From: Bacillota bacterium
GTDB lineage: Bacteria; Bacillota; GCA-003054495; Carboxydocellales; JAJZTU01
Assembly (NCBI GenBank): GCA_021848765.1
Contig: JAJZTU010000004.1
Coordinates: 1-33,854, forward strand
Reading direction: 5' to 3'
Length of the DNA stretch: 33,854 bases
Positions 10,765 through 32,129 of this stretch are shown piece after piece. The position numbers and the translations under genes were made by a program. Below the pieces are notes generated by a model. The model was given only the letters and a program-made list of their open reading frames with translations. It was not told the origin of the DNA and did not search any database. Every line of letters begins with the position of its first letter. Within the stretch, counting starts at the first letter, position 1.

Positions 10765-10888
10765 GTCTTCTCTACTATAACTTTTGCAGAAATATTAGCG
10801 GAGAGGCAGGAGAAAACTCAACGATGTAGAAAACATGTAATAGATTTGTACACAGTTTGTACTAAAATCGTAAAAGTTAGTCACAGGG

Positions 10889-11008
10889 TGTGGATAAGTT
10901 GTGGATAATCCCTGGGTAACCTTGGGGTAACCTTGGGGTAACCTTGGGGTAACCTTGGGATAAGCTTGGGATAAGCTTGGGATAAGCTTGGGATAAGCTT
11001 GGGATGAT
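10889..11008 (+). repeat. 11-bp direct repeat (iteron-like) array with two perfect DnaA boxes
   Basis: TGTGGATAA at 10889-10897 and 10900-10908 (reverse-orientation TTATCCACA, 11 bp apart), CCTGGGTAAC 10911-10920, CTTGGGGTAAC x3 10921-10953, CTTGGGATAAG x4 10954-10997, partial unit 10998-11008. Confidence 0.95.
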
Positions 11009-11280
11009 TGCTGAATAACTATGCTGATGGGGCTGACCAATTTATGCAGATAGAGATCCGGGGAGCGGAAAAGCTCAGCTTCCGGGAGAGACAGGTAGTT
11101 ACCTTGAAAGAAATGGGCTATTCCAACGAAAAGATTGCCAAACAGTTGAAGTTGAGCGCCTCCACAGTGGCAACCTTATTTAATCGTGCCCGGACTAAGG
11201 GCTATGATGTGGTAATCGTCATCCCGGGACAGGCCTTGGGCCTGTTTGGTGTTGGTGATGATGAAGAGGACGGTGATTGA
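11008..11280 (+). CDS. small HTH (LuxR/sigma-70 region-4-like) protein
   Basis: LSFRERQVVTLKEMGYSNEKIAKQLKLSASTVATLFNRARTKGYDV is a typical HTH; acidic tail. Start uncertain (TTG 11008 or ATG 11044). Confidence 0.8.
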   Translation: MLNNYADGADQFMQIEIRGAEKLSFRERQVVTLKEMGYSNEKIAKQLKLSASTVATLFNRARTKGYDVVIVIPGQALGLFGVGDDEEDGD

Positions 11281-11283
11281 TGC

Positions 11284-11742
11284 GTGAAGTCCAAAAATAG
11301 CGGAGCGGGATTTAGGCAAAAAAATAGCGGAATAGACAAAGACAAGGTGTTAACCATGAGCTCCGTGGGCCGGCCAAAGGGACGGGGAGGTAAGGGGGAC
11401 AAGCCCCGCAGCTCCCGGGGAAAAAGGACTTGGAGCAAACTATTGGCAGCTGCTGCATTAGCCTATGGATTTGTAATCATTATGTCTTTTGGGGAGCAAT
11501 TCATGCAGTTGCGGAGCATCAACCGGAATATAGACCAGGTTCAGCAGAAAATCCATTACATGCAGCAGAAAAACAAGGAACTTACCCTGGAGATCAAGCG
11601 GCTCCAGAGTGATGCCTATGTAGAGAGAATTGCCAGAGAAAAACTTGGTCTTGTAAAGCCTGGGGAAACGGTGCTTTTACAGGCAGAGGTAGGGAAGGGC
11701 CGGCCTCTGCAGAAGAGCAACAAAGTGGATGATACTGAATAA
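11284..11742 (+). CDS. divIC: septum formation initiator DivIC/FtsB family
   Basis: Basic N-terminus, one TM (LLAAAALAYGFVIIMSFG), coiled coil, VERIAREKLGLVKPGETVLLQ. Confidence 0.88.
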   Translation: MKSKNSGAGFRQKNSGIDKDKVLTMSSVGRPKGRGGKGDKPRSSRGKRTWSKLLAAAALAYGFVIIMSFGEQFMQLRSINRNIDQVQQKIHYMQQKNKELTLEIKRLQSDAYVERIAREKLGLVKPGETVLLQAEVGKGRPLQKSNKVDDTE

Positions 11743-11760: not shown

Positions 11761-11790
11761 TTGACAATGGCAGGGTTCCTTGGGTATAAT
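11761..11790 (+). promoter_or_regulatory. sigma-A promoter
   Basis: TTGACA - 18 bp - TATAAT, both hexamers consensus, upstream of yabR. Confidence 0.85.
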
Positions 11791-12354: not shown

Positions 12355-12375
12355 GTTGTACTTTAGGAATTTTCA

Positions 12376-12417
12376 TCGAAAATCCTTGAGTATAAATCGA
12401 AAATCCCTGAGTATAAG
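12376..12417 (+). repeat. tandem 21-bp repeat in the ppx leader
   Basis: TCGAAAATCCTTGAGTATAAA / TCGAAAATCCCTGAGTATAAG (19/21 identical). Confidence 0.9.
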
Positions 12418-31665: not shown

Positions 31666-31708
31666 CCGGGGATTCCCGTGAGAAAATGCATGTGTGGGGG
31701 GAAGAGTT

Positions 31709-32092
31709 ATGTTTCGCACAATGTTCAAATCCAAAATCCACAGGGCCACTGTAACTGAGGCCAATCTTAACTATGTTGGCAGCATCACCATTGATTCCCT
31801 GCTGATGGAAGCAGCAGATTTACTGCCGAATGAAAAGGTTCAGGTAGTAAATAATAATAACGGGGCCCGCTTGGAAACATATGTTATCGAGGGGGAGCCC
31901 GGGTCCGGGGTAATCTGCCTTAATGGCGCCGCTGCCCGCCTGGTCCAGCCGGGGGATTCTGTCATCATCATTTCCTATGCTCTGGTAAGTGATGAGGAAG
32001 CACGAACCCTTAAGCCGAAGGTGGTTTATGTCAATGAGCGCAATCAAATGGTGGAAACCGCTAACAAGGAAAATCACGGGGATATCCGCTAA
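31709..32092 (+). CDS. panD: aspartate 1-decarboxylase (pyruvoyl precursor)
   Basis: [29 protein letters not shown] with the G-S processing site; [15 protein letters not shown]. Confidence 0.96.
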
Positions 32093-32113
32093 CAAGGAAA
32101 ATCATCGGGATAT
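32058..32113 (+). repeat. 28-bp tandem duplication across the panD stop codon
   Basis: CCGCTAACAAGGAAAATCACGGGGATAT / CCGCTAACAAGGAAAATCATCGGGATAT. Confidence 0.95.
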
Positions 32114-32129
32114 CCACTAAGCATATAAC

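Follow-up and report, generated by a model that had tools for sequence, protein, structure and literature searches.

A conserved, 11-bp-phased repeat array with DnaA boxes upstream of a small HTH gene and divIC in Bacillota

Between yabQ and a small HTH gene that precedes divIC, the stretch of Bacillota DNA analyzed here (33,854 nucleotides; hereafter the window) carries an array of 11-bp units that includes perfect DnaA boxes and that recurs upstream of the same gene pair in relatives. With a little better than even confidence, we interpret the array as a composite operator, phased with the DNA helix, on the predicted promoter of the HTH gene and divIC; DnaA would bind its 3' units, and the HTH protein probably its TGT/TGTA units. 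We favor this interpretation because the 3' units are DnaA boxes and because there are loci that lack boxes or in which the array stays linked to the HTH gene.

Architecture of the array and its predicted promoter in the window

The genes of the region are arranged in the order yabP, yabQ, array, a 78-residue HTH gene, divIC, an S1-domain gene, ppx, and spoIIE. In the window sequence, 12 units follow one another in unbroken 11-bp phase and in a single orientation from 10889 to 11018. The first two are perfect DnaA boxes (TGTGGATAA at 10889 and 10900), and the two strands of the window hold no other perfect box (0.26 expected). They form a double DnaA box, TGTGGATAA-GT-TGTGGATAA (10889–10908, forward strand), with a 2-bp gap and an 11-bp period. 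A lineage-specific tandem extension (10911–11018, forward strand) continues in the same phase with units that match the DnaA box at up to 7 of 9 positions: CCTGGGTAA (10911), three copies of TTGGGGTAA (10922, 10933, and 10944), four copies of TTGGGATAA (10955–10988), TTGGGATGA (10999), and then the weak GCTGAATAA (11010). The first-pass annotation of this DNA had described two perfect boxes followed by same-orientation 11-bp units, and a 7/9 likeness of TTGGGATAA to the DnaA box; both descriptions hold, with 12 units in phase from 10889. Tandem Repeats Finder gave the array a period of 11, 9.4 copies, and a score of 134, the top score in the window. When its own assembly (3.33 Mb, 83% complete) was searched by pattern, the array unit pair was found at a single place with up to three mismatches allowed, and the perfect double box occurred once. 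The annotation had taken many copies across the genome as evidence against its reading, and this assembly contains no second copy.

The identical copies of TTGGGGTAA and TTGGGATAA look like recent tandem duplication, and a relative from the same order (G003, locus L011) has a short array without them. Judged by this comparison, the seven units of the CTTGGGRTAAS type, the CTTGGGGTAAC and CTTGGGATAAG repeats, arose by local tandem expansion. Units like TTGGGATAA recur in three other loci (L062, L069, and L072), so that an added role as weak sites is possible. The three and four identical copies are also what would be expected of a neutral minisatellite whose likeness to DnaA boxes is due to chance. 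That explanation stands for 10911–11018, but it fits the 3' extension only and is refuted for the core of the array, which is conserved across many families; as an account of the element it is scarcely credible.

Where the first-pass annotation placed the start of the array, at 10889, the block itself stood but the start did not, as further TGT units lie upstream and a sigma-H-type promoter is included. On the evidence of these motifs, the 10889 array forms the 3' portion of a longer element, which begins at about 10826, inside a predicted sigma-H-type promoter (10808–10832, forward strand) with a -35 element AGGAGAA (10808–10814), an 11-bp spacer, and a -10 element GTAGAAA (10826–10832). The 5' phased units CATGTAATAGA TTTGTACACAG TTTGTACTAAA (10834–10866, forward strand) are the best match in the window to a three-unit block that could be fitted in all 75 loci compared below. 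Their TGT trinucleotides, at 10836, 10847, and 10858, are spaced 11 bp apart but are shifted by 2 bp relative to the phase that begins at 10889 (31 bp from 10858 to 10889). Model R1 matched here (G000:C86:10835-10861, E 5e-5) and nowhere else in the genome. The 5' units of the window agree with the DnaA box at only 4–5 of 9 positions, and we propose that they are the conserved core of the array and a site for the HTH protein.

Of the 75 loci, 34 have the motif AGGA-N13-17-G[TC][AC]GAA, which we take, by consensus, to be that of a sigma-H promoter, immediately 5' of the array (32 with identical spacing); the surrounding DNA, 614 kb, holds 21 occurrences. The -10 element itself falls in the phase of the array in many loci, TGTAGA being the commonest fourth unit counted from the 3' end. 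As would be expected of a DnaA-regulated promoter region, the array overlaps the predicted sigma-H-type promoter and leader. In six loci (L062, L069, L072, L084, L086, and L155), TATAAT is embedded beside a TGTGGAT or TGTTGAT array unit, and several of these also have TTGATT 17 bp upstream of TATAAT, which suggests that some lineages have a sigma-A promoter inside the array.

Given its position 3' of the predicted start, the array could instead act as RNA in the 5' leader, through structure or an RNA-binding protein, and the leader in the window does fold better than shuffles (z -3.6). However, the fold comes mainly from the CTTGGGRTAAS repeats of this locus, which form no array in the relatives examined, an Rfam search returned no match, and the exact 11-bp spacing suits helical phasing on DNA. 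We regard an RNA-level element as very unlikely.

Conservation of the phase and association with the HTH gene

The small HTH gene (11044–11280, forward strand, ATG at 11044) encodes 78 residues and is of the GerE/sigma-70 region 4 type according to Pfam (Sigma70_r4_2, 1.4e-8; GerE, 3.9e-8). An AlphaFold2 model made with 38 homologues had a mean pLDDT of 87.8; its closest PDB entries were GerE and NarL-type DNA-binding domains, at nonsignificant E-values of 0.06 or worse. The recognition helix is strongly conserved. The protein was found in 74 further loci, with divIC directly downstream in nearly all of them, and it is present in 118 of 299 genomes of the phylum. In the window, divIC (septum formation initiator; Pfam DivIC, 6.9e-19) occupies 11356–11742 on the forward strand. 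A plasmid iteron would lie on a plasmid beside an initiator gene, and does not fit neighbors that are chromosomal (yabP, yabQ, divIC, and spoIIE). Elsewhere in the region, a perfect sigma-A promoter (TTGACA-18-TATAAT, 11761–11790) lies upstream of the S1-domain gene, two copies of a 21-bp tandem repeat, ATCGAAAATCCCTGAGTATAA, lie just 5' of ppx (12375–12416), and 2.2 copies of a 28-bp tandem repeat (32058–32120) lie at the 3' end of the open reading frame 31694–32092.

We compared the window with the 74 database loci (75 in all) and then added 20 more, giving 95 HTH-bearing loci; the control set consisted of 40 yabQ-divIC loci without the HTH gene, mostly of other families. The relatives are phylogenetically non-independent, and many are incomplete metagenome assemblies. 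Among the 95 loci, the distance from one TGT to another was 11 bp in 239 instances and 22 bp in 166, whereas each other distance from 6 to 24 bp occurred 0–10 times. Identity at lag 11 was 0.364 upstream of the HTH gene and approximately 0.27 in control DNA. A 33-bp block, TTTGTAxTAA / TTTGTACACAA / TTTGTGGATAA, was fitted in 75 of 75 loci, with scores from 47.8 down to 17.3. The unit classes keep an order from 5' to 3': TGTAGA (the -10 element), TGTAGT or TGTACT, TGTCCA or TGTACA, and then TGTGGATAA, so that the series runs from the -10 element to TGTGGA at the 3' end of the array. At least three consecutive TGT units were present in 77 of the 95 HTH loci, in none of the 40 HTH-less loci, and in 0.13% of shuffles (Fisher value for 77/95 against 0/40, 1e-20, uncorrected for shared ancestry). 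The first-pass annotation had named absence or scrambling of the array in relatives as grounds for rejecting it; what we found was an array conserved in kind upstream of HTH-divIC across broad Bacillota lineages.

A model-free pattern of five TGT units, run over the 299 genomes, also matched simple microsatellites at other places, and its reversed control was uninformative, because TGT reads identically backwards. Among other Bacillota genomes, 11-bp TGTTTAACYAT / TGTTAAACYAT minisatellites were seen at G030:C1:92836-92981, G168:C59/C62/C109/C130, and G107:C1:497235; one of them is approximately 2.5 kb from the remnant of the HTH gene in G030.

Several loci depart from the usual pattern. In 24 of the 95, no DnaA box was found within one mismatch; as a group these loci keep the phase (TGT pairs 11 bp apart 50 times and 22 bp apart 32 times), with units TGTAGT, TGTAGA, and TGTACT. 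DnaA alone is an insufficient explanation, because these loci keep the phase without it. In L079, we detected neither divIC nor yabQ nor the S1 gene within 5 kb, and the HTH gene still has the array. In G030 (L164; G030:C1 approximately 1560–1680), an array unit is joined to the middle of the HTH gene, and the promoter and the C-terminal half of the gene remain; one deletion appears to have taken the array together with the N-terminal part of the gene, which would make this genome a natural HTH-loss mutant. G049 (L155), the single genome in which the HTH gene is lost and DnaA boxes are retained, has a promoter and the boxes TTATCCACA, TGTGGATAT, and TGTGGATAA directly before divIC, and no TTTGTA units. 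The box-less phased loci, the poor match of the 5' units to the DnaA box, L079, and G030 all suggest that the array has a second ligand, the HTH protein.

These observations would also be explained if the array were an operator for the HTH protein only, made of tandem 11-bp sites with a TGT core and serving autoregulation, with the likeness to DnaA boxes a by-product of the preferred site. The phase that persists without boxes fits this explanation, as do the array retained beside the HTH gene in L079 and the company that the array keeps (77 of 95 loci with the HTH gene and 0 of 40 without it), a comparison that still contains clade effects and has G049 as its exception. Co-presence of the two could reflect shared ancestry, because the loci are phylogenetically non-independent. 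A genome usually has a single strong site, as would be expected if the regulator were dedicated to it; the PhoB pho box and the PhoP box are likewise tandem 11-bp operators with one TGT-containing site per helical turn, but they serve regulators with many targets, whereas the site described here stands beside a GerE-type HTH gene. Against an operator for the HTH protein only, perfect TGTGGATAA boxes greatly exceed chance, share one orientation, have the spacing of DnaA sites, and are concentrated in the 3' units, and G049 carries TTATCCACA and TGTGGATAT/TGTGGATAA boxes although it has no HTH gene. We consider this alternative possible, at perhaps one chance in a few.

DnaA boxes and comparison with known DnaA-binding regions

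The upstream DNA of the 74 database loci, 11.8 kb in total, holds 42 forward copies of TGTGGATAA and none of its reverse complement; the remaining 652 kb contains 9 forward and 2 reverse copies, which corresponds to an upstream enrichment of approximately 250-fold over the surrounding DNA. At least two boxes at a cooperative spacing are found, as in DnaA-box clusters, both in the window (2-bp gap) and in relatives, in which neighboring perfect boxes are 11 bp apart in eight cases and 12 bp apart in one. E. coli DnaA prefers pairs of boxes that are 2–3 bp apart (PMC11317965), and the arrays of E. coli oriC have 2-bp gaps and graded sites (PMC6070618).

We searched the 299 genomes with a sequence model of the three-unit block, accepting E-values up to 0.005. 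Among the 94 matches listed, 75, in 63 genomes, are just upstream of the HTH gene. Matches were also found at 17 other places, eight of them upstream of dnaA, two upstream of ywlC, which DnaA targets directly in B. subtilis (PMC4447404), and one before divIC in a genome that lacks the HTH gene. The dnaA and ywlC matches support the identification of the 3' units as DnaA boxes, but they are partly expected and non-independent, because the model itself contains a DnaA box.

The array has likenesses to the DnaA-box clusters of B. subtilis at sda, ywlC, and dnaA-dnaN (PMC4447404, PMC8203912), which also have several boxes in a promoter region: its 3' units match the consensus and spacing, and ywlC is matched by the array's own model. 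It differs from them in lying upstream of divIC, in continuing in exact 11-bp phase into TGT units that are not DnaA boxes, and in having a dedicated HTH gene. In the open-access literature, we did not find divIC among the DnaA targets of B. subtilis, nor a description of this phased element upstream of divIC.

The same-orientation 9-mers 2–3 bp apart, strong beside weak, recall the low-affinity DnaA-ATP arrays of E. coli oriC (PMC6070618) and "double DnaA boxes" (PMC11317965), and every unit could in principle be a strong or weak DnaA site, loaded cooperatively from the perfect boxes. Consistent with this explanation, the 2-bp gaps and graded sites have the E. coli oriC geometry, G049 keeps boxes before divIC without an HTH gene, and a similar order of boxes, facing xxxxCACA and then TGTGGATAA boxes 2–3 bp apart, occurs upstream of dnaA (oriC) in the same genomes, where these groups are the second-best model matches in several of 17 genomes. 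However, no TTTGTAGTAA units were seen in the dnaA-upstream regions examined, and those groups have no strict phase (identity 0.308 at period 11 and approximately 0.30 at 10 and 12). The 4–5/9 agreement of the 5' units and the 24 box-less loci also argue against DnaA as the ligand of every unit, which we consider improbable.

Unlike E. coli oriC, the array is downstream of a predicted promoter and has neither a run of at least three DnaA-trios nor, in the box block, an AT-rich unwinding region. The longest TA(A/G) run is 2, compared with runs of 3 and 4 at the dnaA loci of this genome and of G001, and the box block is 47.5% GC. The TAGTAA sequences of the 5' units, which might be read as DnaA-trios, are not contiguous. 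The ectopic origin that the first-pass annotation had considered is not borne out. Its other suggestion, a site for DnaA titration or loading that grew from DnaA boxes, is not supported as the main explanation, given the small number of boxes, their position within a predicted promoter, and the phased loci without boxes; a titration site would have many high-affinity boxes away from promoters, and here two perfect boxes lie next to one. Given DnaA boxes at the preferred spacing, the best reading is still that the array regulates divIC and/or the HTH gene, as was also proposed there, but DnaA as the sole cause is not sustained.

A proposed link between replication and division

In the composite operator that we favor, the array overlaps and follows the start of the predicted sigma-H-type promoter that would drive the HTH gene and divIC. 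DnaA would bind the 3' units of the array (TGTGGATAA, in most cases after a facing TTGTMCACA half), whose 2–3 bp gaps are of the size that lets it bind cooperatively. The 5' units (TTTGTAGTAA / TTTGTACTAA), which share the phase of the -10 element TGTAGAA, would most likely be bound by the co-encoded HTH protein, leading to autoregulation. Because all units are on one face of the DNA at or just past the promoter, occupancy of the array would block or modulate transcription, so that DnaA status and the level of the HTH protein would jointly set divIC expression. Several observations weigh against this reading: the 24 box-less loci, the 2-bp offset between the two blocks of the window, the absence of divIC from the B. 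subtilis DnaA targets in the literature consulted, and the limitation of HTH loss with retained boxes to one genome. We infer both binding events, repression by binding, the divIC output that would follow, and its physiological role from the arrangement of sites and genes.

More tentatively, and with less than even confidence, we suggest that the HTH protein and DnaA share one phased lattice on a sigma-H divIC promoter, where they compete or cooperate, and that replication status may thereby gate septum formation, possibly also when cells divide asymmetrically for sporulation, in much of the spore-forming Bacillota. The coupling of replication initiation to division is an open question, and in many lineages the element brings DnaA boxes to the predicted promoter of a division gene, which suggests that the replication status of the chromosome may help to control division. 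The natural variants, in which the boxes are lost, the HTH gene is lost, or the HTH gene is away from divIC, make a link between DnaA and divIC directly testable in cultured members of these lineages.
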